Source: Ulota crispa (lineage: Eukaryota > Streptophyta > Bryopsida > Orthotrichales > Orthotrichaceae). Taken from it: DNA of 64,000 bases. The stretch covers positions 4,464,001 through 4,528,000 of the forward strand of contig OY987247.1 in NCBI GenBank assembly GCA_963920765.1, written 5' to 3'. Position numbers and translations under genes: made by a program. The notes beneath the pieces are model-generated. The model did not search any database. It was given only the letters and a program-made list of their open reading frames with translations, and had not been told where the DNA came from. Of the stretch, positions 572-31,759 are shown piece by piece. How positions within the stretch are numbered: position 1 is the first letter of the stretch; every line of letters starts with the position of its first letter.

Positions 572-3225
572 CTGTCTGACGGGTCTTAAGTGGCGTCAAT
601 GGCTTGTTATGTGTAGGACACCTATCCGGGTGCCCTTTCCGACAATCAGAAGGGAGAGCTTCGTTAACACGCTGCCAGACCTGCAAGGATAAGCAGGCAG
701 TCAGATTCCAAAAAGAAAGAGCAAAAGAAATTTACCAATCTTCAAAAAGCCCCGACCTAAATTTCAGAACCTTTAGAAGAAAAGCTCCCCATATATATAT
801 CTGGCTGCCACCCAAAAAAAAACTAACCTATTTCATGTAGAAGAATGGGCCTAGTCCATCAAAGCCCTTGCCTGCATGACATCTGGCCTTGCCTCCGGCG
901 ACACATTGAGCATGTCTTTGATCAGTCCTGTGATGGCGGCAGAATATCTCGGCATGTCCGGTACTCGGTAGTTGCAATTCAGGATTTGCAATTTCGACTC
1001 ACCATCAAATGCTGACTTCAAGTAGGCGATCCTATATAAAAGACAACCGAGTGCCTGAATGCATTCAAGTAGCAACCGTTAGATCTAAGATATCACAACA
1101 GAACCAGTGCATTAGCAAACCAACAGTTGTAGCGCAACAGAAATCACTGAAGTTGCTACAATTTCAAATAGTAGTGAAAACCCTTACCCAGATATCCACC
1201 TTCTCGCTTATAAGTTCCTTCTGGTAAAGGTCCCACATCTGGCAGGGAAAAGGTTTGACTGTCTGAAGTAAGTAAGGAGTCGTTGATTTGCAAGTCAGTC
1301 CATTCAAAAAGAAACATCCGTAGCAGCAGATACTAAAGTTTATCTCTAAGTGCTCAAAATGGCACAAAAAATGGTTGGTTTTATACCTATAAAAAATGAA
1401 CATTTACGAAACAGAAAATGTACCAAGAAATAAAAGAACTCATAACCTACTAGCTTCCAAAGTAGGATTTTCAATTTGTAGCTAGGACATCTGGGGTTAT
1501 GAAGTATATGCTCACGGGCAGTTTGACTCAACGCTTTGAATCGTTACCTAGTAACCCCTCAGCATACAAGAAAGAGACGAGTGACAACACTTACCGTCTA
1601 AAGCTCATTGTAAGTAAGTAAGCAAGTAAGCAAATCGATTAAGGACAAACCTCCGGGGCTCGATAAGAAGGTGTTGTGAATTTTCGAATACAATCTTCTT
1701 CAAGGCCCATCTCTTCGGGAGCATCGAAGTGCTTGTGATTGGTCGAAGTGCTGCCGAAGTCACACAACTTCCACGTCCCGTCTGGACCCATGAGCACATT
1801 CTCCACTTTTAAATCCCTGTCGAAAACGCTCACAAACGTTAAAGTAAGTCTTAAACTCTTTCAAAGTGAGTATGTGAAGCTTGTATCAGCGCAAAATTTA
1901 AGAGTGAATGTAATGAATAATGCCATGAATACGTGCTGGCAAGGACATTCAATGACAAATCCAAAATATAGTTGGATTTAAGCATAACCCTAAGGTAGCA
2001 ACACCCATAACCATCACTGTACCCATAACCATCACCTCTAAAACCTTGGAAAATCTGTGGAAGTGAATAGATGTAATTACAAGAATGTACAACATGTGAA
2101 CATGAAACCTTAGTGTTGGTATTAAGTGCAATTGCAGTCGGCTCTTTAAAAATTCACAACTTATTCTCACAGTATCCAAATAATACATTCAAAAGTGCAA
2201 ACTCATCATTTTTCTGATCCTATAATTTTCTAGATGTTTATTAATAATCATCATGTTCAAAACCCTTAATTTGACGGTTATGAGTGCTGCTACCTTACCA
2301 TTCACGGAGATATCCAAAACGGTAGCATTTGAAAAGAGTGAGGTTTTGAACAAAGCTGTCATTTGTTGAAGTTCAAAGATTAGCAATGTCACTAATCTCG
2401 GAACCTCTGATGTCAATCAGACCGAACGCACGCACCAATCTAAGGTAGTGAAACCCTAATAACTTAGACGATCGGTACGTTTGATTGAGAGGATTTTCTA
2501 AAATGGCGGTTTTTAGGCCATCTACCAGCAAAACAAATGAACCTTCAGAAACTTTGCATTTCAGCATCCAGATAATGAATTCTTGTATAAGCCAAACAAG
2601 AATGTATACAAATTTGACTTTGACAGAAACTAGCGAAATTAGGTGTTTAGCGACGAACAGCAAAGCAAGCATCGCCATAGCCATAGCCATAGCCATAGCC
2701 ATCGCCATAGCCAGAGTCAAAGAGGAGCAGAAGAGAGAAAGAGTTTATTGCAAACCTGTGAGCAATGGGAGGCGATTGGCAATGCATAGCGTAAACAGCA
2801 TTACAAATGTCCAGAAACATGAGCAAGATTTGCTTCTCCTCGTAATATCCTGCGCCGCGAGTCTCCAGCACAAGCGCCAGCATCTTGTGGCAATACTCCA
2901 TCACCAGAAAACACTCCTTGGTGCGGCCTAAGTCATACACCACCTGCGCATGCAGCGTGACCACATTCGGGTGGCCCCGAAGCGCCTTCATGACCGCCAC
3001 CTCCTTCTTCACGAGATCCACCGACTCGTTGTCGTTGCAAATGATGTGCTTCAGCGCATACGTCTTCCCCGTGGCCGACTCCTTGGCCAAATACACGGAG
3101 GAGAATCCGCCCTGCGCGATCACCGAGCGCACTTGCAGCTTCAGATCGCCTACGTCCACATGCCTCCCCTCCAATGTACTCCCTCCCGCCTCCTTGCTCG
3201 GCATGAACTGCTTCAAACGCCACAT
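572..3225 (-). CDS. NAK/AAK1-like serine/threonine protein kinase (partial, 3' end off window)
   Basis: Five exons join in frame: 3225-2756, 1816-1651, 1238-1188, 1054-872 and 680-572, about 326 residues before the window edge. The start is MWRLKQF at 3225. Kinase landmarks are all present: glycine loop AQGGFSSVY (about residues 37-45), ATP lysine in YALKH (K59), catalytic HRDLKVEN (D158), DFG (D176), the APE segment, and the lobe motif DIWALGCLLYRI. Within the AAK1/GAK (NAK) group, plant members have this DLKVEN and SEKVDIWALGCLLY pattern and act in clathrin-mediated trafficking; that role is inferred from the family. Intron 4 uses a GC donor (CAG|GCAAGG at 871-870) and joins to VWQRVNEALP, which is expected at this point in the family. 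The C-terminal tail is missing from the window. Intron 1 carries a MITE and a hexanucleotide repeat. Confidence 0.88.
1991..2297. mobile_element. MITE, AAGGTAG-type terminal inverted repeats
   Basis: The ends TAAGGTAGCAACACCCATAA and the inverted TTATGAGTGCTGCTACCTTA bound 307 bp inside kinase intron 1. The same end type occurs at 3930, 20399, 27659, 38563 and 62043. TA at each border fits a TA target, as in Tc1/mariner-like elements, but no transposase is present, so superfamily is uncertain. Confidence 0.75.
2670..2718. repeat. Hexanucleotide (ATAGCC)n microsatellite
   Basis: About seven copies of CCATAG/CCATCG lie in kinase intron 1, roughly 40 bp from the exon 1 donor. The same hexamer recurs in the His-rich coding repeats (29835-30080) and upstream of the start codon at 37338. 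Confidence 0.85.
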
Positions 3226-3929
3226 CGTGCCACCGCCAACGGTAGATCCAAACCTAATAACACCGGATCTAAAAAACCACAGGGATTCAAACCACAGGAT
3301 TCAAACCACAATAAACCTCGAAAGCTGGATCCCGAGTTAGGTCAGACAGGAGCGTTGCAATGAAGGAGCAATGAAGGATCGATCTGTTGGATTTTCTCCA
3401 CCATCACTTTCATTTGAACTCTTCAGTGATCCATGATGCGCGTGTTGTGACTTGTGAGTGATGCTTTCAGAGGTGATTGATTGCTGGTAAGCTTAAGCTG
3501 AGCACGATGTGGCATGGTGGCTCCGGGAATTCAGAGCAGTCGGGCGGACGATTAGGGTCCAAGCACGTCGTCGTCCGACCGATGCAGAGGAACAGTGCAG
3601 GAGGGAGATGGAGATGGAGATGGAGGCCCAGCCTTTTTTCCGCGGGCGCTATTGTGTGGGTATGCCGGGCCATGGGTGGGCAGGTGGGTACCGGCGCCGT
3701 GTTGCGGGTGGCGTGTGCCGGTTCATAATGAAACTCCGAAAAGAAAGGATCAGGGGCAGTGCATTTTTTTTCGGCCTGACATTTATCGCAGATCACACAT
3801 GGCAAGAGGACAGCGGACAATTAATGGAGGGCCTGCCCACATTTGTTGCAGGCTGTTAGAATTTTCGTCAGTGTAGCTTCCTTTTGCCAAAAAAATGCAC
3901 TGATCAGGGCTGTTTTGTAACCTACATTG
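3226..3929. other. Kinase 5' flank / putative promoter region
   Basis: This region is less AT-rich than the DNA beyond it and holds a short (GAGATG)n run near 3605. Open frames here overlap one another and show no recognisable domain. It probably carries the kinase 5'UTR and promoter. Confidence 0.4.
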
Positions 3930-4804
3930 TAAGGTAGCAACACCCATAAGGTAGGAGGCTCATAAATCAACCATCTAAGGGTTAAAACTGAATTTTGGGG
4001 AGGTGAAACTTCTTGAACTATTTTTCAGTAAATTTTTGACATCTAATTCAAGTTGTTTCATATTTTTTGGAGCTTTGTGGAATTAGTTATAAAACTTTGC
4101 AGTGAAAAGGTCAAAGGGCTCTAAAACAGTTCACCTCCTTCAATGTACTCTGCTTGTACATTTTTGAAAGCTTATGAAAAATAGCTTGTACACATGAATT
4201 ACATTTGAGAAGGTGGACGGTTTTAGAGCGTGAGCAGAATATGAGCCTCCTACCTTAAGCAAGAAACAAAGAGTTTTGGAGTAGGAAAATCAATTGACAA
4301 ACTTTGAATAAAATGTTGTAGTGAGTAAGAGGAAATTAAAAAAATTGGTATCAATTTCAAAGTTTCAAATGCAAGCATTTGTTCACAAAGATTTTTCAAA
4401 AATCTAAATCACTGAACTTGTATGGTTGTGTGTCAACTAGAGCTACTACAAGGGACCACTGTCAATTCAAACATTTTCTGTCAATTAGGACCACTTGATT
4501 TGGACATTTTTTTGTCTATTTGGACATTTTTTTTGTTAAATTTTTGTCAATTTGGACATTTTAGTTAACTTGGATGTGTCAATTAGGACAAGTTTTTCTT
4601 GTAACTTGCTTGAGATGCTAAAAACAACGCAATGGGTCACTCAAAAATGTCATACAAGTCACCTACAACCATCACTTTGTCACCCTTAACCATCACTTAA
4701 GTACCCATAACCAAATTTTTAAATATTTGTAAGTCACTGACAACTTGACACATGCATAGTTCATGCCCATGGAGATAATAGCACCTATGGGTGTTGCTAG
4801 TTTA
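3930..4804. mobile_element. MITE of the AAGGTAG family (outer element)
   Basis: Left end TAAGGTAGCAACACCCATA pairs with right end TATGGGTGTTGCTAGTTTA. The interior (ATTGACAAACTTTGAATAAA, then GTTCACAAAGATTTTTCAAA) matches the element at 62043-62826, so both are copies of one family. A second MITE is inserted 17 bp inside the left end. Confidence 0.72.
3947..4257. mobile_element. MITE nested in the element at 3930-4804
   Basis: The ends TAAGGTAGGAGGCTCATA and TATGAGCCTCCTACCTTA form a clean inverted repeat. The outer element resumes directly after it, so this is a later insertion at a TA. Confidence 0.75.
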
Positions 4805-4806
4805 TA

Positions 4807-5478
4807 TTGCATTTAGGTTGCTTTGACCATTATGTTGCCCTTTTACTTGGAAATTTACCTCATGATTCATCCCTTGGCCATTAAGAGATGCATGCAACTA
4901 TTTAGATATTAGGATTTCACATGATTTATGACCTGAACACCACTAGTTTATTTTTTTTAGCTTTGTTGTTGTTGCCAAGCCCTTTAGTCCTTAAATGTTG
5001 AAGTGTACAATTTTTGTCCAATGGGTATTAAAATAACACTTTATAGGAAAAAATAATTGTTTTCATCTGATTTTTTTAGAAATGATTATAGATACATGGT
5101 GCATCATAAAAGGCAAAAAATAACTTCACCAAATGTACTCATATTTTTAAGTGTACTAAACTATGAGAGGATTCAAAAACACAATATCTTGTCCCATGTT
5201 GCTTTTCTTGCAAATTTTCATGAGATTAACATACACTGTTGAAAATAGTAATTTTTAGAAGTAGTATTATAATGGGTGGGTAATACTTGCCACACCACTA
5301 CAAAACACTAAAAACCATTGTAGAGCCACTTAAGAAGAGCTAGTCAGGGTGACTAGCTTGACGTTTAGGGGTTAAAGTTTGTTTAGATGGTAATTATTGA
5401 TGAAAATTACTATGGTATTGGTTAGTATTCATATACTGTAAAGTGTTGAGAAATTAATATGGGGCACCCTAAATGCAA
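4807..5478. mobile_element. Candidate MITE with GCATTTAGGTTGC ends
   Basis: TTGCATTTAGGTTGC at the left and GCACCCTAAATGCAA at the right are imperfect inverted repeats. A second copy with the same ends lies at 60985-61381. No coding capacity is visible. Confidence 0.5.
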
Positions 5479-6731
5479 TACTCAGTGTACTTTTTTGAAA
5501 CGTGGTTGGACATTGCACGCCTGTATAGCTCCCTGCAAGTTCATACACGCATTTAACAATTCGGTGCCCAAGATGGATGATATTGGATGCAAGTTTTGAG
5601 ATGAAGAATTGTAATTTTTCATCTAATTTATTGGTTATTGGTTAGACTTCTTTGAACGTATTTACAGTGGATGGTAGTGAAAATTATCGTTGTTGATGCT
5701 TTATTGACTTGTCTACAACAAAAGAAATACTCAAATAAGAAATCTCAAAAATGGAATTTTTGAGTGTTTTGGAAACCTGTACATCTATGCTCTAGATGTG
5801 TGTTTTAACTATAAACAATTCAATTTTGAATATGAGCCCAACTAATAGAATGCAACTTACTAACTTCGGTTTCTATTCTGATTTGGGAATTTGAAAATTT
5901 CCGAAATCTGAATACTATATCATAACTTGAACTTTGGGCTTATTACCATGGGGTGATGATTTTCTAATTATACAAGCACAAGGAATTGTGGTGTACATTA
6001 TGATGTTTTACAATATAATGTGCACATATATAATGTGCACATATAGTGAAGTTTTCAAATGTCTTAAATTAATTTTTCATTTAATGTGGATTTACTTCAC
6101 TTATATATAGCCTCCACACCATTACATGCTTGGGTGTGACACATGCAATACTTGGATGATAAATGTTTAGGGCTTATCAAAATGCTCTCTTGACACTCAA
6201 ATTGAGCATGTCAAGCAATAACTCTTATAATCAATCATCATCCTAAGTTTAGTGAGCTCTATCCTATGCTCCACTTGATGATTGGTTAATTGACTATTTG
6301 TGTAGCATAATTGAAAGGCAAGGGTAGGGGACAAGAATTTGAGGGCTCTTCAAAAATAAACATGAACCCTTGGCATGTTAATTATTGCCTTTAAGGATAT
6401 AAGTGCTTTTTTTCTTGAGGAGTTTATAATAATTTCAAATTTCACACTTTTCTGAAAATATAAAGACAAACAAAAGACATGTGGTTCAACTCTAAAAGAA
6501 ATAAAAATAATAATCTTCACTCATATTTAGTTGAAAATTAGAGAATACATGGCAAGAAGTGTTGAAACTGATTTCACAATCTTATGATGAATACTTTAAG
6601 TGTTAATAAGAATGCACAAATCTTAGTCCTTATAAAAACAACCTTTCAGGAGGAATGATCCCCTCTTAAATACTTTAACAAATTGGACATTTGGCACTAT
6701 ACCATGCTTATGTACTTCACAAATGTTTCAG
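5479..6731. other. AT-rich intergenic DNA
   Basis: I see no gene, RNA or clear element here. A short duplicated ATAATGTGCACATAT lies near 6015-6045. Confidence 0.5.
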
Positions 6732-18485: not shown

Positions 18486-21400
18486 TCATTTCCCCAACAA
18501 GTACATCAGTTTCGTTCGAAGCCGTCGCTGCACCAGCCGCTTCTTCCGGCTCAACTTGCTACCCCTTTTCTCATTCGGTGAGGAGAGCTGGTGGTCCTCC
18601 CCACACTCGAGCAACTCCAGCTTCTTCCCAACCACTGGCTCATAATGTGAGCCTTCTGTCTTTTCCTGCACTTTCAATGGTATTGGCTTCTTCTGCTGCA
18701 ACAAGTTCTTGTGCCAGAGGACGAGCTTGCAAGAGGGCTCGTTGACAGACTCTTCTTCCATAGCCTCCTGCTTCTCGGGCTCTTCCTTGCTCGCTACTGA
18801 AGTGAGACTGATGCGGAGCTTGTATTCGCGAACACGCCGCGCGATCTCCACCTCCAGGTCTTGGCATTCGCGCATGCGGTGTCCATGGAGCCCGCACCAG
18901 TTGCACGGCGGAACTCGGTACCGGACATGGAGCTCTGCGTCGTGGCCCATCTTCTTCGGATACGGCGAGGTGCTCCGACTCTTTCTCACCGAGGGTAAGC
19001 TTTTCTGATCACTCACCACTTTCGTTCCTTGCTGGAGGCTGATCATGCACTGTTGCTGAACCTCAGTAGGCGGCTCCTCGGCCAGCTGCTTCGCCAGCTG
19101 CTTCAACGACTGCAACTCTGTCTGGTTGTTCACAGACTCTACAACGGCGTCGAAATTCTCGGAGAGCTCGTTCATCGCCCCCTCGAAGACACCCAACCTG
19201 CTTGTCATCGCTTCTCCAACGCCTACTAGGCGCTGAAACATGTCCTCGACCACCCGGAAACCTTCGACCTGAGACGGTCCCTGCATTCGCAGATCCGCCA
19301 GCTTGTCCTTGAGCAGCAGCAGCCTTGCTTCGTTCTTCGCGCGGTACAGCGTTCTGAGACATTCCCAGCATGCCTTTGGTCCGTCGAGTCCTGCACTACT
19401 TCAACGTACTCAGAAGAAAGCCTTCGTTTTCAGGTCAGATTAGCCTCCCAGCACAACCTCAATAAGAAATAAACGTCATTGCAAAGTGTTTTACAGATTG
19501 TACCAAATCCATTTCTATATGAGTCCCTAGTCATCGAAGTGACAACAAAAAGAAGTTCGTGGTTTCTAACCCAAAATCTACAAAAGGCGTGGTAGGAGGG
19601 TCAATTGGTGCTATTTGAAGGCTTCCACCTTCGCATTCATTCGTCATTATTAGGCAATCACACGTACTTCACTAGTTTAGAGTAAGCGACTACTTCCCTT
19701 TTCTTTTTTCTTTTAAGTTGGCTCTTTTTGAAGAGCTACTTGACTACAGGTAACCTCTACAAGAAACACTGCCATTCACCCTTTCCCCACTAAATTTCTC
19801 AAATTGAAGAAAACTAATTCAATCAGAAACTAGGAAAAAGTTCAACAACTCAGTAAACAACTTTGCAGAGGACTGCCATGAGCTCAAGGTCATGGACAAA
19901 AGGAAATCCGGATTCTTTTTCGTGAACAACTTAAAGGAAGTTGAAGAATCTTTTCCTGCGGTTCAGGTAAGAAAATGAAATCTCATCGTACTTTTGTTCC
20001 AACAAATGCAAAGTTATGAACAATGGGGGGGCGAAAAGATTGGGAAATTTCAACCCAACACCAAACACCCCGTAAATCCGTTCTTGTGAGATTCCAAGGG
20101 CTACAATCAAAATTGAATATGTTAGGTTGCACTTGAATATGTTAGGTTGCACTTGAAAATGTTACGCATCTTCAAGTTTGATTGTAACCTTTGGGGCCTC
20201 AAATGAATGGATCCATGGAGAGTTGGGTACTTGGGTGTAACCTTTGGGGCCTCAAATGAATGGATCCGTGGAGAGTTGGGTACTTGGGTGTTGTGCTGAG
20301 ATTTCCCTATCTTTTTGTCCCTCCCCCACTCTACAGTAGGCTAACCTTGATTGCCAAGAATGAAAGAATTATGCAGATATGTTCAAACAAAAGCATGTTA
20401 AGGTAGAAGCACCCAAAAGTGACACTAGCCATTTAGTGACATCTGTAAATAAACCTAAAGTTAAGCACTTCCGCACCCAAACAAGACACGCATGCACCCA
20501 AACTAGACATGCAAGCTAACATAAGGGAATAGAAATTGTATAGGTGGCAATTTATGATTGGATGTCACATGATCTTTTTGTTGTCATGACATGGTCTTTT
20601 TGTTGTTGCTTTTTCAAGGGTCTAGTGTCCACAATAGGTCAATCTAGGGAGTTACCTTCAACAATTTGTAATATATTCATACAATCTCAAAAACTCCAAA
20701 AACAATTTTGCTTGCATCAATATGCATTCCCTAACAAGCCTATGCCATTAGATTCTCAAAAGACCCTAACGCCATATTCATTAAATTGGGAAAACCAGAT
20801 TCCCAAGTTGTACTTCACCTTAAACCCATTGTTTTGCTTTCTCGGGTATAAATGTCAAATTTGAAAATATCAGATTTGGTCTGAGCCATTAAGATTTTGT
20901 CCCTTGCAAATTCCTCCTCTCAGGGAAGGACACTTGTACCAAAAAAATGCTACTTAAACCTAGAGCTTGATTTAAGGTGATCACCTTAAACCTAAATTAT
21001 TCCCAAAATCAGGGTTTCTTCTCAAATTAACGGATATGGCGTTCCCTCCAAATTACCACATCTGAAGTAAGTGTCACTTTTGGGTGCTTCTACCTTAATA
21101 CCTTACCAGGCCATTACCTGGAGTTGCAGCCAGGACCTTGGTACCCAAGACACACTGGTTCACGACCAGCGGTGGTGCTTCAGCGCTTTGGCTCGGAGCT
21201 GCTGCTGCTGCTCTTGGAAGGGCCCGGAGAGCTCCCTTGGTGCTCTTCACTGGCCGGGCAACAGCATCCCCACTTTTGAAAAGTTTCCTGCTCCGTCTAA
21301 ACTTGCAAAACCCATGCTTCGAAGGTAAACGAACCGCCACACTGGTCGCATCCAAGCAGAACTCCTTCGGCAGATCTGGCACGGGAGCCAACTTTCTCCA

Positions 21401-24400
21401 GAAATAAGACACCTCTCCGGGCTCCAAGCTCAAAGCAATACGTGCCGACTCTCTCGAACTCGGTGCCTGGATGTTGAATCTGCAATTGACTATGTTCATG
21501 TATTCTGAGTTCCCAAGAGCTTCTTCAATGGAAAGATCCGAGCTTCGTGCGTGGATACTGGTGGTGATCCCTTCCAAATTCAAACGCCTGGCCTTGTAAG
21601 GAGATGTCTCCCGGTCTGCAAGCATCCTCTTCGTCTGGCGAATGTACATGTGGCGAGGATCTTCGCCTCTTCCAGAGCTAATCCAGCTGTGCAGCAAAAA
21701 ATTGAATGATTTCACCACCTCAGTAAACAATAAGGGTGGTCACACCTTTTACAAGAATGAAACTTTTTATGAAGAAAGAGAAGTTGTGGAGTGGAAATAG
21801 GAGACAATGGGAGCAGTTCTTCATGGAAGAAGGTGTGACTCTCCTTTTGTGGGCAATGGAGAATGGAGATTGAGTATACCTTGAACATGGTGATGCAGTA
21901 AGAAAACAAGTTGCATTCACACACTCAACTGAGGTATCCAATTACAAAGAGGGTGAAACCAAGAAGAGCAAGATGAAAAAAAAGACATGTATCAATAAAA
22001 ACTTCACATGCTAAAAATTCTTCACACCCATAAAATTTCTCAATCTCTAAAGAATGGGACCTCCGCAAATCAAAGAGAGAGTGCCAAGTCCCCATTCTCA
22101 AAGGATTAAAAGATTGAGAATGGGGTGATTTCTCAATCTTCAAAGAATTAGGCCTCCACAAATTAAGGAGAAAGTGCCACATTCCCATTCTTGAAAGATT
22201 GAGAATGGGGTGAAGAAGGTGTGATTACCCTTAATGTAAAGTCCGAGGGTCTACAGTTCAAGGATATTAAATCCAAGAGAGTCTCAAACATCCACAAGGA
22301 AGAGGATACCAAATCCATTTAAAAACTTGACCCCATCTTCTATTAACTGACCCGTGTTATCAACGACAACACATCTACTTATACACTTGGGGTGGAGTTA
22401 ATTAGCAAAGAGATATACTCCTATCTCGGAAAGATGGGCTTAAATTGAAACCTCATGTTTGACCTCATGTTTTTATTCCAATTTTATTGATTATATCATA
22501 AGATACATTTTTCATGAGGGTTCAAATTTTACATTGGCACAAACAATGATGAATACTGTTATGTGTTCACTTGTTTAGGTATCAGTTGTATCAACGTTGT
22601 CATCTGCTAGAAGGATTTAGTGTAAAATCATTTTACGCATGTACTCTTCTCTTTCCTATTGGTCCTTTAGAAAAAGGACTTAATGTAAACCACTAGCATG
22701 TACCCCTCTCTTTTGTGGTAGTTAACAATAAAATATGATAAATTATTGGAAATTACACCATAACACTCTTTTTTAATCAATTAGACTGAGCCGCTACACC
22801 AAACATGAACAACAAGTCACTGCAATTGCACCACAACACTCTCTCAACCAATCAGAATGCAGATGCAGTTGGGCCCCATTAGCCTCCATATGACCTACTC
22901 AAACCTACTAAAGGTTCCAATGGACCAATCTTTGCAAGCCAAAGGGAGTAATTAGCTACCATTGATCTCTGACTGAAAATGGGGTCATCCACGGCCACTT
23001 TGAATTTTTGTAGAGAATTCATATTTATACATAAAGCATAAAACACCATATTCGTTAAAATGGGAAAAAACGTGATCCCATTTTGTACTTCACCTTGATT
23101 CAGAATAGTCACCTCAAACCAGATTTGAAGGTACTAGATTCAATTTGAACCACTAAGACTTTTTCCCTCGCAAATTCCTCCTCTTAGGTGAGGACATGTG
23201 TACAAAAAAAAATGCTGAACTTAGTTGTACATGTTCATGTACAACTTGCAAAAATCCCAAAATGTGCATTTTTTCCCAATTTACCTCATATGGTGTTATA
23301 AGGAAAAAAAGATGAAGCCAGAAAGCTTACAAATTCCAGAGCCGTTTTCCTTTTGAGGCAAACTCGTCAATAGCTTCAACACACTTGAGGCCCCCTAGGC
23401 AAACAAACAGTCAGAATTTCCACCAAATAATTAAGGGAAAATTCTATGGATACCCCTGAAGTTTGCAATAATTTCATAGATACCCTCGCTTTTTAAGGAA
23501 TTTCATTGATACCTTTGGACCAAAACTTTATCATGTTTTTTTGTTGTGCATGCCACTTCCCTTCTTCTTTTGTGCACACACATAATAAAAAAAGAAATAA
23601 TACATGCACAAAGGGAGAAGGGAAGTGGCATGCACGACAAAAAAATGTTTGAAAATTTTGATGCAAAGATATCTGTGAAATTTCTGAAAAAGCAGTGGTA
23701 TCTATGAAATTATTGCAAATACCAGGGGTATCCATGAAATTTTCCCAATAATTGAAGACATTCATTTCATTTGGAAAATCCATTATGCATTCAACTAAGA
23801 TTAGTTTCATGTCAAGTTCGTGATAGGATCTCTCATCGTACATCTCGCCAGAACTGGTCTTTGAGGTCAAGTTCCAGGTGTCGCCAACAAACAAAATTTG
23901 TAGACCTAGTATTGTGCTCCACCTGCCACAATTAAGTCATTTTTATACAAGATTAGCTGTTGGCGCTTGCTACATTATGCATTCATCATTAGATTTTTAT
24001 TATGATTTTTCATATGTAAAATAGAATGCAAAGTAAAAATTTCAGTAAGTCTTCAAATTATATCTATGTGACGATATCATAAAGACTAAAGGTCACTATG
24101 ACTTTAAACGTGTTATTCATTAAATTGGGAAAACAATGGATACCATTTTGTACCTCACTTTAATCCAAAATTGTCACCTTAAAATAAATTAAGGAGGTCA
24201 CTTGAAACCTAATTAATGAACTTATGTTCAAAATTTCAGAAGTTAATGAACTTTTTGTCCAAAAAGAGCATATTTTTGGAAGTTGCATATCTCATTTCAT
24301 TGAAAAACAGTCAACGGATTCCCAATTCAATGAATATGGTGTTCTTTAGAAAAAAAAAGCCAAAGATCCCACTTTGTACGCTTTTTCCCAAATTAATGAA

Positions 24401-27400
24401 TAACACATTTTTAGTAACATGACTAGCGATTGGCGTTGGCTTTACTATGTATTCCCCACTAAAATTATTGTGAAATCCAAATTGATTGAAGATATGATAT
24501 TATAAAGATCAAATGTGATATTACAGATCACCATTAGAATTTTATTAGGATTTTCATAAATTAGATAGAATGCAAAGTAAAAATTATAATAAATTTTCAA
24601 ATTATATCTATGTGATAATACCACAGTGATTGGAGATATGATTTTACAAAGACAGATATGTGATATTGCAAAGGTCGATATGTGATATTACAGAAGTAAT
24701 TGTGATCTTTGTAGCCTGATGATTTAGTAGACAACACAAACTTGACCTTCTCAGAGTCAACAAAATGTGAGTATTCCAGTAGAGGACTTTGCCTAGATTT
24801 ACACACCGGAAGGCCGACTCGGATCCTCTCCACCACATGGTGCTGCTCCTCATAAGCTGTTTTGAAGTTCTCAATAACACTGGACATACTGCAGTAGTGC
24901 AACAATGCTCCCAATGTATGTTAGTATTTGTATATTTTACAAATATTTTATCAATAAATTTATTAAATTTTTGTTAATAGACTGCTTGTAATCTTTTTTG
25001 AAAATCAGCTATATATATTCTTTTCTTGTTTTTGAGAAAATACATTTTTTTAGTCCTAACAAAATCAACAAAATGAGCAATAGCTCTATTAGCTTCAGCC
25101 ATACTATGGATTTTTTTAATTTTATTTATTGCATCTCCATTATCTCTAGCAGAATCTATTAATGCATAATTTCATTGAAAAGCCATATTTCGACTTGAGC
25201 ATTGTTTAGATGCTCCTGATAACCAACAAATAGCAAGAGCTGCAGGTTTTATTTCAATTGGTATTTGACCGGTGGATCCACTTAAACGTTTGCTTTTATT
25301 GTTACGTTAGGAGTTTGAAAATGAGGTAAAGTTTGAATAGGATTAGGTGGGTTTGCAGCTCTAAAATCTTATCGTATAGTGGTGCTTGGTCAACATCAAT
25401 CTTTGTAATAAAAACAATTGGGTAAGATAATAGTCCCATTCCCCGTTTATCCAAAATGTGTACTATGGACCCAATTAAGGTCAAGTGTTTGCGTACAATC
25501 AACGCTTGTTTTTTGTCATCTCCCATTTTGACTCATCAACTAGAAAGACATTTGGTTAGTGAACTAGAAACATAGGTAGGAAAACATCTTCAAAATTACA
25601 ACCACCAAAACTAGGGAAAGTAATGCAAATGAAATGCTTGTTTATGCTCAATGTTTGGATACAATTAACATTTTTTCTAGCCAAAAGTGTTGACCTTATC
25701 CAAGCACCATTGTATCACAAACTGGGTTAGAATATTTTGCCATTATAATAAGAACAGACAATTTTGCGACTTATATGCACGACCTGTGGAACTTCAAGTC
25801 TTTGCTGCAGAATTCCGGCCATCTGCTTATACCTATTGCACCAAACTTGCCAAAATGCTGCACCAACAACACTATGTGTTGATACACCTGCTCCACGTCC
25901 AATTTGCTTGTATCAATCTGCCTGTAGATTCCTTAAATAATGTTTTGAACATGAAACCCATCTTGTTTTTGCACACAGATTCAGCAGAAGGCATGCAGTG
26001 ACCTAGATCATTACGAATTAAAAAAGAGAAAGTCAGTAGTAGTAATTTTATTTTATTTTACTGCAACTAATGAAATAAATCGGGGTTCAATGGCGAAACT
26101 AACTGTGATTTATTTTAGGGGAAATTACTAATAGGGGCATGAAAATGTAAAATATTACAAATAGGGGCGCAATTTCAAAATAATTATAAATAGGGGCACA
26201 ATTTCCAAGAAAATTGTATTTTTTTTGTAATTTTTTTGGTTTGGACGTAGGTTGATTTAGACGCATTGCATTAAATGTTAGGTAATTTCTAAAAAACTTA
26301 AAAGTCTCTCCAAATCAAGCCTAAATAAAGAAATTTTAGTAAAGAGGATGGCAATTTTTGGAAATTTTAATTTTTTTTGGAAGTTAGCTAACATTTAATG
26401 TGATGTATCTAAATCAACCAATGTCCACACTAAATTTTTTTACAAAAAATCACAATTTCTTGAAAATTGTGCCCCTTTTTGTAATTGTTTTGAAATTGCA
26501 CCCCTATCTATAATATTTTACATTTTCATGCCCCTATTTGTAATTTCCCCTTTGTTTTATTTTTTTCTATTTCTATCAAGCAGGTGGCGGTCTAGTGTGA
26601 ATACCTCTTATCCTTTGATTGAGTAAAGTAGACATACCCATTCCCGACCCTTTAGCAATTCCGACCCTTGTGTACCAAAGGTGTTCATTTCAGTTCTAAA
26701 ATGAGCACCTTGGGTACATAGGGGTCAGAATTGCGAAGGGGTTGAGAATGGGTATGTCTACCTTAGATTCATGTCAATCTTTATTACGGCTTTTATGTTC
26801 AGTAACACTTTTTTGCCTAAGGTATGTAGCTTGAATTGCATCCCCTCTCTTGAAAAACGTCCCATAGGTAGCTGAAGAATGGATATGAGGTGGTTCTTGA
26901 ATGGACCCTCTTTAGCAACAAAGAAAAAGGTGTATTCTATAGCAAGAGCCAATCATACTCCTTGATTTCACCTCATCTCTTTACAAGTTGCAAAGGAACG
27001 ATTTATGAGAGACCTAGAATCACAAATAAGTACCTCTTACATATGACTTTGAAAATTCATCAACAATTCAATAATATGCTTCACAAAATATGAAAAAAAT
27101 TATTATATTTGGCATCCATTTCTCTTTGTCTGAAAATTAGACAAAACCTTCTTGCCTCAAAATGCCTATGGAAAGGCAGATCAGCCCTTAGAGTATCGAA
27201 TTTTGAGCTACCTACCTTACCTGATCATCCAACACCGTCTGGAAGCTCAATGGGTAACGCTCCACATCAGGCAGCCCAGCCTACAAGAGAAAAATACATA
27301 TATTGTATCACAAGCATTACGAAATTAAAACTTAACATTTTTCCTTAAAAAAATTGCAAAATGAAAGTAATCCAGAGGGAAAAGGCAATGCTGGGAAGTA

Positions 27401-28493
27401 AAGTATACCGTCAGAAAAAGTGCAACAAATACTGCTTCCACGCACTTGATAGGTTGCGGTGACGTTATGATCTGCTTACCATACAGTCACTCAGTCCCCT
27501 CATAAATCTTAGACCAGGGACTCAAGGTTTCAAATTCAAAGACTTGAGAAAAAACAGAGTTTAGATCAAATCTTATACCACCAGAATCAGTGAAGGACAT
27601 TGCCTTTGTCAGGCAAGAAATAAATAAAGTTGAAAACATGAAAAGCCTTCACATGACCTAAGGTGGGAGCACCCAATATCAACAGTGTACCTAATGGTGT
27701 CACTCTTTGCACAAGATGGTCATTATAGAACTTAAATCTAGGTACACCAAAGATAACTTATCATTTTAATCAACAATAATAAGCTATCACTAATAGATTT
27801 TGAGTTCTAGAATGATCACCGTGCATAAAGAGTAATAGAATGGCCACCTTGTATAGAGAGAGTGAAGCCATTAGGTACACTGTTCATATTGGGTGCTCCT
27901 ACCTTATTACTAAATGCTAAGAAAAACACAAGACTCGATTTGGGCTTCTTGCTCCTTCAGGGCTTATGAATGCAGGTAAAACTGTCAGCAATAACAACAT
28001 AACGGGCGAATGAAAACAGGAAGTAAAACAGAGAAAAACACGTTTCTTTTTAAAACAGAGTTCAGGGATTACCATTTTTGCAGTCTCCATAATCAGAAAA
28101 AGTGGTCTTTGCTTCTGCGAGTTGAAAATCGTGTGTGGAAGGAGACTGTATTCAAACGACGCAATGTACTGCATTATCACCATTTCCAGCAACACCAGAC
28201 ACACAAAGCTTCAAGGTCATAACCCTTTTTTTTTTTACAAAATTTATTTAAGTTAAAAAGAAGCTGAAAGTGTGTGTGTGTTCAGTTACCTGTTCCACAG
28301 CCTTGAGGCGTGGTTTGGGCATCAGTCTGTAGAATATGATTGGCAATCTGGGACGAGTGCTTTTGGCTGCAACTGTGGCCATTCGTGGTGCTTCTTCCGC
28401 AACCTCATCTGAAGCCACTGAGACATCTACAACCGTGGGTGGGTCTACAGGAGCAGGGAACTCTTCCATCTCCATTGCCAGCACTAGACTCAC
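18486..28493 (-). CDS. Vasohibin-like tubulin carboxypeptidase with C-terminal zinc-knuckle extension
   Basis: Ten exons assembled with matching phases: 28493-28290, 28168-28073, 27471-27409, 27280-27221, 25887-25784, 24888-24807, 23922-23842, 23383-23331, 21686-21118, 19390-18486; 2217 nt, 738 residues. Residues 58-230 match the vasohibin core: QRPLFLIMETAK, PIKCVEAVFVALFLT, DVERYPLSFQT, QHIVLLV, KFGAIGISR, SSVIENFKTAY and CWRHLELDL. The triad Cys110-His145-Ser162 has spacings of 35 and 17, the same as I recall for human VASH1 (C169, H204, S221). Vasohibins remove the C-terminal Tyr of alpha-tubulin; that activity is inferred. Residues 249-738 are unlike animal vasohibins: a basic region, a possible coiled coil near 455-545 and a CX2CX4HX4C knuckle (C600, C603, H608, C613). 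No SVBP-like partner gene is visible. Exon 8 is short and least certain, and exons 9-10 could belong to a separate gene. Confidence 0.85.
20115..20290. repeat. Small tandem duplications in vasohibin-like intron 9
   Basis: A 21-bp unit (GAATATGTTAGGTTGCACTT) is repeated about 2.5 times, followed by two near-identical copies of a roughly 52-bp unit beginning TGTAACCTTTGGGGCCTCAA. They look recent. Confidence 0.8.
20399..21097. mobile_element. MITE with AAGGTAGAAGCACCC ends, vasohibin-like intron 9
   Basis: TAAGGTAGAAGCACCCAAAA and TTTTGGGTGCTTCTACCTTA bound 699 bp. The inverted repeat runs on through GTGACACT/AGTGTCAC. The right end is only 20 bp from the exon 9 donor at 21118. Confidence 0.8.
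21731..22233. mobile_element. MITE with AAGGGTGGTCACACC ends, vasohibin-like intron 8
   Basis: TAAGGGTGGTCACACCTT pairs with AAGGTGTGATTACCCTTA, 503 bp apart. It contains a duplicated GATTGAGAATGGGGTGA segment. Its left end lies about 45 bp upstream of the exon 9 acceptor. Confidence 0.65.
23435..23746. mobile_element. Foldback MITE, vasohibin-like intron 7
   Basis: AGGGAAAATTCTATGGATACC pairs with GGTATCCATGAAATTTTCCC. Complementarity extends inward (GCATGCCACTTCCCTTCT with AGAAGGGAAGTGGCATGC), so nearly the whole 310 bp can fold into one hairpin. Its relative is at 32292-32599. Confidence 0.78.
25060..25355 (-). pseudogene. rps7: Organellar-type ribosomal protein S7 fragment (decayed)
   Basis: The minus strand reads PNVTIKA, then after a frameshift KRLSGSTGQIPIEIKP, ASKQCSSRNMAFQ, a TGA stop, ALIDSARDNGDAI and MAEANRAIAHF. 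These follow plastid S7 in order (KARRVGGST-QVPIEI, RNMAFKL, MAEANRAFAHF). It lacks a few codons after EIKP, has no N-terminal half, and lies in intron 5 of the vasohibin-like gene. The best reading is an old plastid-to-nucleus insertion. The residues fit plastid S7 better than plant mitochondrial S7. Its divergence is high, so the donor is uncertain. Confidence 0.6.
26117..26550. mobile_element. Foldback MITE, vasohibin-like intron 4
   Basis: GGGGAAATTACTAATAGGGGC at the left and GCCCCTATTTGTAATTTCCCC at the right form the outer arms, with further complementary stretches inward (CATTAAATGTTAGG with AACATTTAATG). Sequence near 57960-58080 resembles part of its interior. Confidence 0.78.
26820..27165. 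repeat. Dispersed repeat, copy 2
   Basis: Matches 7690-8035 in the same orientation over about 340 bp. It lies in intron 4 of the vasohibin-like gene and ends about 55 bp below exon 4. Confidence 0.7.
27659..27906. mobile_element. Compact MITE, vasohibin-like intron 2
   Basis: TAAGGTGGGAGCACCCAATA at the left and TATTGGGTGCTCCTACCTTA at the right. The arms extend for about 38 bp (CAGTGTACCTAATGG with CCATTAGGTACACTG). At 248 bp it is the best-preserved member of the AAGGTAG group here. Confidence 0.85.
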
Positions 28494-29360: not shown

Positions 29361-30707
29361 TCATGACAAACCCCCCAGGTGTTGTTTTAGCTCTGCCAAG
29401 GCAGTGTTCACAGCTGTTGAAGCCACTGCAAGGCCGTCCGGTACTGACCCTTTCGCTGCCTTCACTTCCTCGGTAATCCCGCCCACCAGGACATCGGTTT
29501 TCACACCTCTATCACGCAGCTGGTTTGTTTCCTGAGGCGGGTACAGCGAAGCGCCGAACTCGTCCACTTGCACACCCAAACTCTTGCATTGCTGCAGAAT
29601 GGTTTCCAAGTAGAGCGTCGCAGCCTCGTCGTTGCCTTGTTGAGGATCCGCTGCCACGTACAGAAGCTCCTTCACAAAAGCAAGGACAGAAGTCACCACG
29701 GTTTTTGTTGCATCGGCCACTTCCAGCTCTTCCGGTGAAAGCTCGTCGTTGAATTCCAAGCTCTCCGTTGATGAGCACGCTCCATCTTCGTGCTCGTGGC
29801 CGTGATCGTGTCCACATGCTCCATGCCCGTGCTCGGATCCATGGCTATGGCTATGGCTGTGGTTGTGCAAGCTCTGGCTATGGCTGTGATCATGCCCACA
29901 TGCTCCATGCCCGTGCTCAGATCCATGGCTATGGCTATGGCTGTGGTTGTGCAAGCTCTGGCTATGGCCGTGATCATGCCCACAAGCTCCATGCCCGTGC
30001 TCAGATCCATGGCTATGGCTATGATTGTGAGAGCTCTGGCTGTGGCTGTGGTTGTGAAGACTATGGCTATGGCTGCCCGAGGGGATTTCATGAGCATGTC
30101 CACAGCCACAACCGTCGTCTTCAGGTTCTTTTCCATCGACACGCATTTCACCGATCTCTCGCAAGACATCCTTCACGGAGGTAGCGACTTGAGCCAAGCT
30201 GCGTCCAATGGCAGCTCTATTGGTATACGGCGTTTTCTTAATCACGTTGCAAGATTCCCAGACACAACCGACAAGAGCAGGCAAGGCGCTCTCACGCTCC
30301 TCCTTGGACGAGCCCTTGACAGAGAACGACACCGCGCTTGTCAAGAGAGACAGCCCTGCGCCGAGCACGCCTTTCACGGCGTTCCGAATGGTCACCGCAA
30401 GCGTTGGCCCTGCTCCCACCGTGAAGCCATGGCAGAGAAGAATCAGACCTTGCAAGCTGTCTGCAAGGGTCTTCATGGCTTCCTCCGCCTCGTCCACTTT
30501 CAACAAAGGTTGCGTCCAGAGGAGTCCGATCGTGGTCGCGTGCTTTGACACGACGTCGGCTGCTTTCTTCACTTCGGCCCAGTCGAGTTTCGCGGATCCG
30601 GCCGGCGCGGGCGTGTCCAAGAGCGCGAAGGATTCGTTTAACGAGGCTGTCACTCTCTGCAACGTTCGGGAGAGGTTCGCTACTCGTCCCTTCTGCGACT
30701 TCCCCAT
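29361..30707 (-). CDS. Cyclin-D1-binding protein 1 (GCIP)-like protein with His-rich insert
   Basis: Single coding exon of 448 residues. The start is MGKSQKGRVANL at 30707, 15 nt after a likely 3' splice site (CCAATCCAG at 30723), so an upstream in-frame ATG at 30803 falls in the 5'UTR intron and is rejected. Residues 42-185 follow the plant GCIP/CCNDBP1 family: LDWAEV, SKHATTIGLLWT, GLILLCHGFTVGAGPTL, LVGCVWESCNVIKKTP, RAAIGRSLAQVATSVKDVLRE. Residues 325-448 give the helical second half. Between them, residues 200-311 are Cys/His-rich with three 28-residue repeats of the form GSEHGHGACGHDHGHSQSLH. In animals the family binds D cyclins and HLH factors; the plant role is not established. The insert suggests binding of Zn, Ni or Cu, which is inference. 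Confidence 0.9.
   Translation of the reverse strand: MGKSQKGRVANLSRTLQRVTASLNESFALLDTPAPAGSAKLDWAEVKKAADVVSKHATTIGLLWTQPLLKVDEAEEAMKTLADSLQGLILLCHGFTVGAGPTLAVTIRNAVKGVLGAGLSLLTSAVSFSVKGSSKEERESALPALVGCVWESCNVIKKTPYTNRAAIGRSLAQVATSVKDVLREIGEMRVDGKEPEDDGCGCGHAHEIPSGSHSHSLHNHSHSQSSHNHSHSHGSEHGHGACGHDHGHSQSLHNHSHSHSHGSEHGHGACGHDHSHSQSLHNHSHSHSHGSEHGHGACGHDHGHEHEDGACSSTESLEFNDELSPEELEVADATKTVVTSVLAFVKELLYVAADPQQGNDEAATLYLETILQQCKSLGVQVDEFGASLYPPQETNQLRDRGVKTDVLVGGITEEVKAAKGSVPDGLAVASTAVNTALAELKQHLGGLS
29790..30075 (-). repeat. Three in-frame 84-bp tandem repeats coding for His-rich units
   Basis: Repeats of 28 codons start at residues 234, 262 and 290 of the GCIP-like protein. They are nearly identical at DNA level and include CCATGGCTATGGCTATGGCT on the plus strand. 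The frame is kept, so copy number could vary without breaking the protein. Confidence 0.9.
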
Positions 30708-30722
30708 TGTCGATGATGGTGT

Positions 30723-31759
30723 CTGGATTGGAAACATACACACAAAGGCTGTTGTCACAAACTGCGCTGATTGCTTCGTCTCGGTTCTACCTACCGGCAA
30801 CAATACTCTCTACCAAATGCAAAGAAATCTCGAAACCCTAGGTTCGTTCTTCCACGATCCTAGCTAGAAACAGCCGCAAATGTCACACTACTGTCATAAC
30901 TTGCGGTTTTTTTCATCTCCTCTGTTCTCACGCCGAAAGCTTTTAACGGCAACAACACTCTTTACCAAATGCAAAGAAATCTCGAAACCCTAGGTTCGTT
31001 CTTCCACGATCCTAGCTAGAAACAGCCGCAAACGTCACTATACTGTCATAACTTGCGATTTTTTCCATCTCCTCTGTTTCTCACGCCGGCCGCTTCAACG
31101 GCAACAACACTCTCTACCAAATGAAAAAAAATCTCGAAATCATAACACTCTCTACCAAATGCAAAGAAATCTCGACACCCTAACTTCGTTCTTCGACGAT
31201 CCTAGCTAGAAACAACCACAAACGTCACTGCAGTGTCATAACGTGCGGTTTTTTTATCTCCTCTGTTCTTCCGCCGGCAGCTTTAACGGCAACAACACTC
31301 TCTGCCAAATGTGAAGAAATCTCAAAACCCTGGGTCCGTTCTTCGACGATCTTAGCTAGAAACAGCCACAAACGTCACTGCAATGTCATAACTTGCGGTT
31401 TTTTTCATCTCCTCTGTTCTCACGCAGGCCGCTTTTAACGGCAACAACACTCTCTACCACGGTGCCGAAACTCAACTCGATTCTTAGACACGCATTCCGA
31501 CTAGAATGCTGCCTTGTTGCGAATGCAACTCTAAACCCTCATACCGTCGAAACATTGAAACTCTAGATCCCGGCAACTAAAGACCTGAAGAAATGCCAAC
31601 AAGCATGCATCGATGATCGGTGGCGAGCCGGAACTAAGTTCCTACTGCATCGTAGCCTTCAAATGCACAATCCTAGTCGAACGCAAAATGTCGATAAAGC
31701 ACCAGAGGTACTGACACGGCATTTAGATAAAAAAGAAAGCGAAGTGTAGTCTTGCTCAC
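30723..31759 (-). other. 5'UTR intron of the GCIP-like gene
   Basis: A donor CACAG|GTGAGC at 31759 and acceptor CCAATCCAG at 30723 would define a 1037-bp leader intron, with the ATG 15 nt into the second exon. The prediction rests on splice-site consensus and on the leader position. It contains the tandem repeats at 30797-31460. Confidence 0.6.
30797..31460. repeat. Four to five tandem ~150-bp units in the leader intron
   Basis: Units begin CGGCAACAACACTCTCTACC, pass through CGAAACCCTAGGTTCGTTCTTC and GATCCTAGCTAGAAAC, and end TCTCCTCTGTTCTCACGCCG. Starts are near 30797, 30949, 31099, 31288 and 31439 (partial). The third copy has an internal partial duplication. Confidence 0.88.

Follow-up and report, generated by a model that had tools for sequence, protein, structure and literature searches.

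A stretch of 64,000 nucleotides from the Ulota crispa genome (assembly GCA_963920765.1, contig OY987247.1, positions 4,464,001 to 4,528,000; hereafter the window) contains a vasohibin gene that is protein-coding and has nine coding exons; the genome carries at least four such paralogs, this one included. Judging from its sequence, the encoded protein is most likely a tubulin carboxypeptidase, an interpretation to which we assign a probability of roughly three in four. In our coordinates, the window is G000:C6:4464001-4528000 of a 274.8-Mb assembly with 157 contigs; eight of these (C1-C5 and C7-C9) are 19-41 Mb long, and matches on C10 reach past 12 Mb.

To assign the family, the 438-residue protein was searched against Pfam, and the only match was Vasohibin (PF14822), with a score of 163.3 bits (curated cut-off, 24 bits; E = 8e-48) over profile positions 35-230 of 245. 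When a draft without exons 7 and 8 was searched against the PDB, 19 VASH1/VASH2 sequences were obtained at E values of 2.7e-31 to 2.2e-27, and the next-best matches were two nanobodies (E = 0.52 and 0.9), leaving human VASH1 and VASH2 as the only credible matches. The alignment with human VASH2 was gapless and contained 54 identical residues among 158 of the core, and C104, H139, and S156 were located at the places of VASH1 C169, H204, and S221, with equal spacings of 35 and 17 residues. A transglutaminase-like fold is predicted from this alignment to the solved VASH2. These results agree with the original prediction, made by a model from the letters of the window, of a plant vasohibin with an intact Cys-His-Ser triad. 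The motifs named there, PIKC, QHIVLL, and GAIGISR, were recovered on the minus strand, starting at 27453, 25881, and 25842, respectively, with the VASH1 spacings. The residues were identified correctly, whereas their numbers (110, 145, and 162) included six extra residues in front and become C104, H139, and S156 when counted from the Met at 28475.

Mutants of the human enzymes have been described in two reports. VASH1 C169S and H204A disrupt activity, and mutants of K168, R222/R223, S221, and K145/K146/R148 disrupt or reduce it (PMC6937246). In VASH2, activity is dramatically reduced by K135E, K157E, R211E, R212E, and K218E, and R211, R212, K157, and the Cys position sit at the bound tubulin tail (PMC6642083). 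Among the functionally important residues of VASH1 and VASH2, the window gene keeps C104, H139, S156, K103, R157, K81, R83, and K164. In the gapless alignment to VASH2, K81, R83, K103, and R157 correspond to VASH1 K146, R148, K168, and R222, and K81, K103, R157, and K164 correspond to VASH2 K135, K157, R211, and K218. The chemistry of the core and the greater part of the basic groove are thus kept, with one loop altered.

The final gene model, on the minus strand, runs through eight small exons between 28475 and 23331 and closes with a large one (Table 1). All exon borders were GT/AG, and the joins were in phase without any stop or frame break. The in-phase GT/AG joins of the original prediction were retained, and its seven small exons were extended to eight before the large one. 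Upstream of 28475, the reading frame of exon 1 reached a stop without passing another Met. When the window was searched with the 438-residue protein, each exon was matched once, and the sole other match had an E value of 0.62. An alternative model that took exon 7 as the last one, its stop ending at 23833, was ruled out by the further 53-nt exon and by the conserved large exon with the motif W[VI]..G[RK]G.DP in all four copies.

Table 1. Exons of the window vasohibin gene, the gag-like frame behind it, and the paralog L006
Feature	Position	Strand	Description
Coding exon 1	28290..28475	-	186 nt; Met at 28475; core similarity begins here
Coding exon 2	28073..28168	-	96 nt; Y69 (VASH1 Y134), K81, R83 (VASH1 K146, R148); length common to three paralogs
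Coding exon 3	27409..27471	-	63 nt; PIKC with K103 and catalytic C104 (codon 27442-27444); length common to three paralogs
Coding exon 4	27221..27280	-	60 nt; AGLPDVERYPLSFQTVLDDQ; length common to three paralogs
Coding exon 5	25784..25887	-	104 nt; QHIVLL with H139 (25876-25878); GAIGISR with S156 (25825-25827) and R157; length common to three paralogs
Coding exon 6	24807..24888	-	82 nt; MSSVIENFKTAYEEQHHVVERIRVGLP; length common to three paralogs
Coding exon 7	23842..23922	-	81 nt; VEHNTRSTNFVCWRHLELDLKDQFWRD; length common to three paralogs
Coding exon 8	23331..23383	-	53 nt; CVEAIDEFASKGKRLWN; length common to three paralogs
Terminal coding exon 9	21095..21686	-	592 nt including stop (21095-21097); WISSGRGEDP motif, then basic tail, pI (isoelectric point) 10.1
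Gag-like open frame, very probably outside the gene	18486..19390	-	copia-type gag similarity and CCHC zinc knuckle (CNWCGLHGHRMREC); last exon of the original prediction
Paralog L006	G000:C1:11603500-11613400		coding exons at 2225-4896, tail up to 6725; frame open over the exons built; glutamine run in tail

A search of the genome with the Vasohibin profile detected one exon each of three further genes (L004, L005, and L006). The same search skipped the window gene itself, indicating that it is insensitive to small exons. Four vasohibin genes is a lower bound. The regions of L004, L005, and L006 contained complete vasohibin cores; these genes scored 182.6, 175.0, and 153.0 bits, respectively, against Pfam Vasohibin (L006 without its tail), and exons 2 to 8 were 96, 63, 60, 104, 82, 81, and 53 nt long in all four genes. 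Over 179 shared residues, the window gene was identical to L004 at 122, to L005 at 102, and to L006 at 89, and L005 and L006 were identical to each other at 103. The pN/pS ratios of the six pairs were 0.27-0.40, indicating fewer replacement than silent changes, although these are rough values with silent sites near saturation; for L005 and L006, Biopython gave a dN/dS of 0.294/1.863. The 122 identical residues shared by the window gene and L004 were kept at a pS of 0.72. Private changes, counted where the other three genes agree, numbered 7 in the window gene, 3 in L004, 9 in L005, and 19 in L006. In a tree of five sequences, which is too thin to lean on, the window gene and L004 were separated from the rest with a value of 84, and L005 and L006 were joined with a value of 46. 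In the active site of L006, the catalytic Cys is replaced by Ser (PIKS), the Arg that follows Ser by Pro, and the residue corresponding to VASH1 Y134 by Trp, so that this paralog is an apparent pseudoenzyme. The terminal exon of L005 (G000:C1:29803000-29812900, exon at 5201-5771) encodes a cysteine-rich tail stretch (CECGLVEPNLLEDCKLCDCGNLLCK) that is absent from the other three tails. Among viral contigs, 13 pattern matches for vasohibin relatives were obtained, none of which was confirmed.

The expected substrate is present in the genome. A tubulin profile search yielded 63 exon matches, which were grouped into 27 places (L009 and L011 were assigned from frames or identical scores). Twelve of the loci were alpha-like, and all 10 readable C-termini (L007, L008, and L027-L034) ended in EEY; no tail was found for the alpha-like L036 and the fragment L054. 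The remaining places were beta-like, FtsZ-like, and gamma-like (L035), plus L037, L052, and L053. The tubulin-family exons of these last three places (G000:C2:19.38M, C3:7.81M, and C3:5.02M, respectively) presumably resemble delta or epsilon tubulin of centrioles, which would be consistent with the formation of basal bodies in this plant. The alpha-tubulin copies L007 (G000:C1:5047417) and L008 (C1:5057851) lie some 10 kb from each other in opposite orientation and agree in score and tail, and beta-tubulin occurred three times within 28 kb at G000:C3:2894455-2922978 with the same scores; either recent duplication or an assembly effect may account for both.

Further genome searches bear on the cell setting. 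TTL-family exons were found at three places, and one of them reads like a ciliary polyglutamylase type. Dynein heavy-chain exons (PF12777) numbered 20, at nine places. Flowering plants are not known to have dyneins; the presence of heavy chains here therefore makes it very probable that this plant produces flagellated sperm. MATCAP (PF08014), which catalyzes the same reaction in animals and belongs to a metal-dependent family different from the vasohibin of the window, gave no matches in the genome in a search run without a positive control. The EEY ends of alpha-tubulin and the dynein heavy chains are in line with the suggestion in the original prediction of a tubulin detyrosinase candidate linked to sperm, which now has to be read for one of at least four genes and for a putative activity.

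For catalysis, the function of the tail, and the cell type, we infer the following scheme. The basic tail and the positive groove (K81, R83, K103, R157, and K164) would hold the acidic tail of alpha-tubulin, and C104, activated by H139, would attack the last peptide bond. The C-terminal tyrosine of the EEY end would then be released on polymerised microtubules, and a TTL-type ligase may restore it. Stable arrays, above all those in sperm, would be the likely place of use.

Several observations weigh against this reading. The second Arg after Ser (VASH1 R223/VASH2 R212) is W158 in the window gene, and Cys, Ser, and Asn in L004, L005, and L006, respectively; its loss speaks against full activity. 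VASH1 L226 is replaced by F161, with Leu in the three paralogs, and VASH1 K145 by Q80. The carbonyl of VASH1 L226 holds His and may be the third triad member instead of S221, and the Ala mutant is weaker (PMC6937246). In addition, one paralog, L006, has clearly lost its active site. VASH enzymes need SVBP (PMC12714142), and searching the genome for SVBP (PF15674) gave one match of 17.8 bits (cut-off, 27), whose frame showed no visible resemblance; the search is weak for short split genes, and one of the same type overlooked the vasohibin gene of the window. In the report on VashL, the reported Chlamydomonas vasohibin, the locus is said to correspond to the SVBP peptide, and the name given to it is Vash2-SVBP homologue (PMC11770126).

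Considering these points, the window copy might keep the vasohibin fold and cut tubulin poorly, serving as a regulator or decoy while its sisters L004 and L005 carry out the enzymatic function. The three substitutions at R223, L226, and K145, at or including which human mutants are weaker, and the inactive-looking sister L006 in the same genome would be explained in this way. However, C104, H139, S156, K103, R157, K81, R83, and K164 are kept, the second Arg is absent from L004 and L005 as well, and the 7 private changes of the window gene lie between the 3 of L004 and the 9 of L005 and below the 19 of L006. We therefore regard a decoy role as unlikely and prefer an active carboxypeptidase.

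The position of the gene end was decided by comparison with the paralogs. In all four genes, the core was followed by a large exon starting with W[VI]..G[RK]G.DP and encoding a basic tail (pI 9.5-10.4), which had no Pfam match; human VASH tails are basic too. The terminal exon up to the stop was 592 nt in the window gene, 613 nt in L004, and 571 nt in L005, and the frame of L006 also reached a stop. Because the paralogs end with this large exon and have no convincing gag-like counterpart behind it, we ended the gene at 21095, and the protein most likely stops at 21095-21097 with 438 residues.

Beyond this stop, the segment 18489-19400 matched Retrotran_gag_2 (PF14223) with 29.6 bits (cut-off, 27) over profile positions 62-164 of 172. 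About 300 codons, among them those of a zinc knuckle, are open on the minus strand at 18486-19400, and visual inspection showed no long pol-like frame beside them; we read this frame as an old retroelement remnant or a domesticated gag. In the three paralog loci (9.9 kb each), no convincing gag-like frame was found, the best match (E = 0.028) being upstream of the L004 exons. Models of 688 and 732 residues that ran into 18486-19390 were ruled out by where the paralog genes end. The chain including this segment has 732 residues from the first Met and 738 with six extra residues, which is probably what had been assembled in the original prediction; its 738-residue product is likely a fusion with a retroelement-like frame, and its last exon resembles copia-type gag and lies outside the vasohibin gene on this evidence.

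A genuine fusion, in which the vasohibin core is continued by a captured retroelement gag with a zinc knuckle that might bind RNA or self-assemble, appears improbable. Splicing from a GT donor at 21117 to an AG acceptor that ends at 19391 would join both frames in phase, and the gag-like frame is open over its whole length of some 300 codons. Nevertheless, the large exon has its own stop, at a length close to that of the terminal exons of L004 and L005, the paralog loci offer no convincing counterpart, the frame spans only part of the gag profile, and the stretch ahead of the acceptor is pyrimidine-poor by eye. That the gene is a pseudogene is very improbable. Its introns carry inverted repeats of mobile-element type and an organelle-like insert, which would favour this reading, but all nine coding exons are free of stops and frame breaks with GT/AG borders, and 122 of 179 residues are identical to L004 despite the pS of 0.72.

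Like human VASH1 and VASH2 (PDB 6j8f, 6j4o, and others), the window vasohibin has the core sequence, the Cys/His/Ser spacings, the Lys before Cys, the Arg after Ser, and a basic tail. It differs from the human enzymes in its identity of 54/158 to VASH2, in the loop after Ser, and in the W[VI]..G[RK]G.DP motif followed by a tail without Pfam match. Members of the family have also been described in its own branch of life: vasohibins were reported in 2016 from green algae to bryophytes, including Physcomitrella (PMC4866520), and disruption of VashL in Chlamydomonas strongly reduces detyrosinated tubulin, causes intraflagellar-train stoppages, and impairs ciliary growth (PMC11770126). They belong to the same family by report, the likeness being one of description, not alignment. 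The original prediction, which took the plant enzyme for detyrosination to be poorly defined, is incomplete in this respect. In the accessible parts of these accounts, there is no mention of a set of four genes or of a paralog that looks inactive, and no experimental study of a land-plant vasohibin was found in the literature on vasohibin with Physcomitrella or bryophytes, in a search with most subscription journals outside its coverage.

The introns of the window gene contained four pairs of inverted repeats, at 23435-23746, 26117-26551, 26624-26765, and 27659-27906, with arms of 48-142 nt that were 83-92% complementary, such as small mobile elements leave behind. In the intron that separates exon 5 from exon 6, an AT-rich broken fragment at 24974-25420 resembled ribosomal protein S7; it matched a chloroplast S7 chain best (4v61_AG, E = 2.9e-6), scored 16.8 bits against Pfam S7 (below the cut-off of 24), and is probably plastid DNA transferred to the nucleus. 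The next gene upstream, at 29361-30809 on the minus strand, encodes a GCIP (cyclin-D-interacting) protein (GCIP_N, 129.3 bits) with a histidine-rich tandem repeat (HSHSHGSEHGHGACGHDHGH) in frame, and a protein kinase exon (Pkinase, 61.3 bits) was located at 2650-3300 on the same strand. An Rfam search of the whole window gave no matches at gathering scores.

The window gene joins a known family that has already been reported from bryophytes and algae. What is new is that the genome has four or more such genes, one of them an apparent pseudoenzyme, that these share a tail motif, and that they go together with tyrosine-ended tubulin in a dynein-bearing plant. Tentatively, and with a good deal of doubt, seedless land plants may keep a small vasohibin family made up of enzymes (the window gene, L004, and L005) and a dead member, L006, acting as a microtubule regulator or competitor; such a family may need no separate SVBP and may act on the microtubules of swimming sperm, and its disappearance along with these sperm would then be explained. 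The inactive-looking paralog beside active-looking ones provides a natural test of non-catalytic roles, and, with intact vasohibins and tyrosine-ended tubulin occurring together in a land plant, the question can be tested by knocking these genes out in a moss or liverwort.

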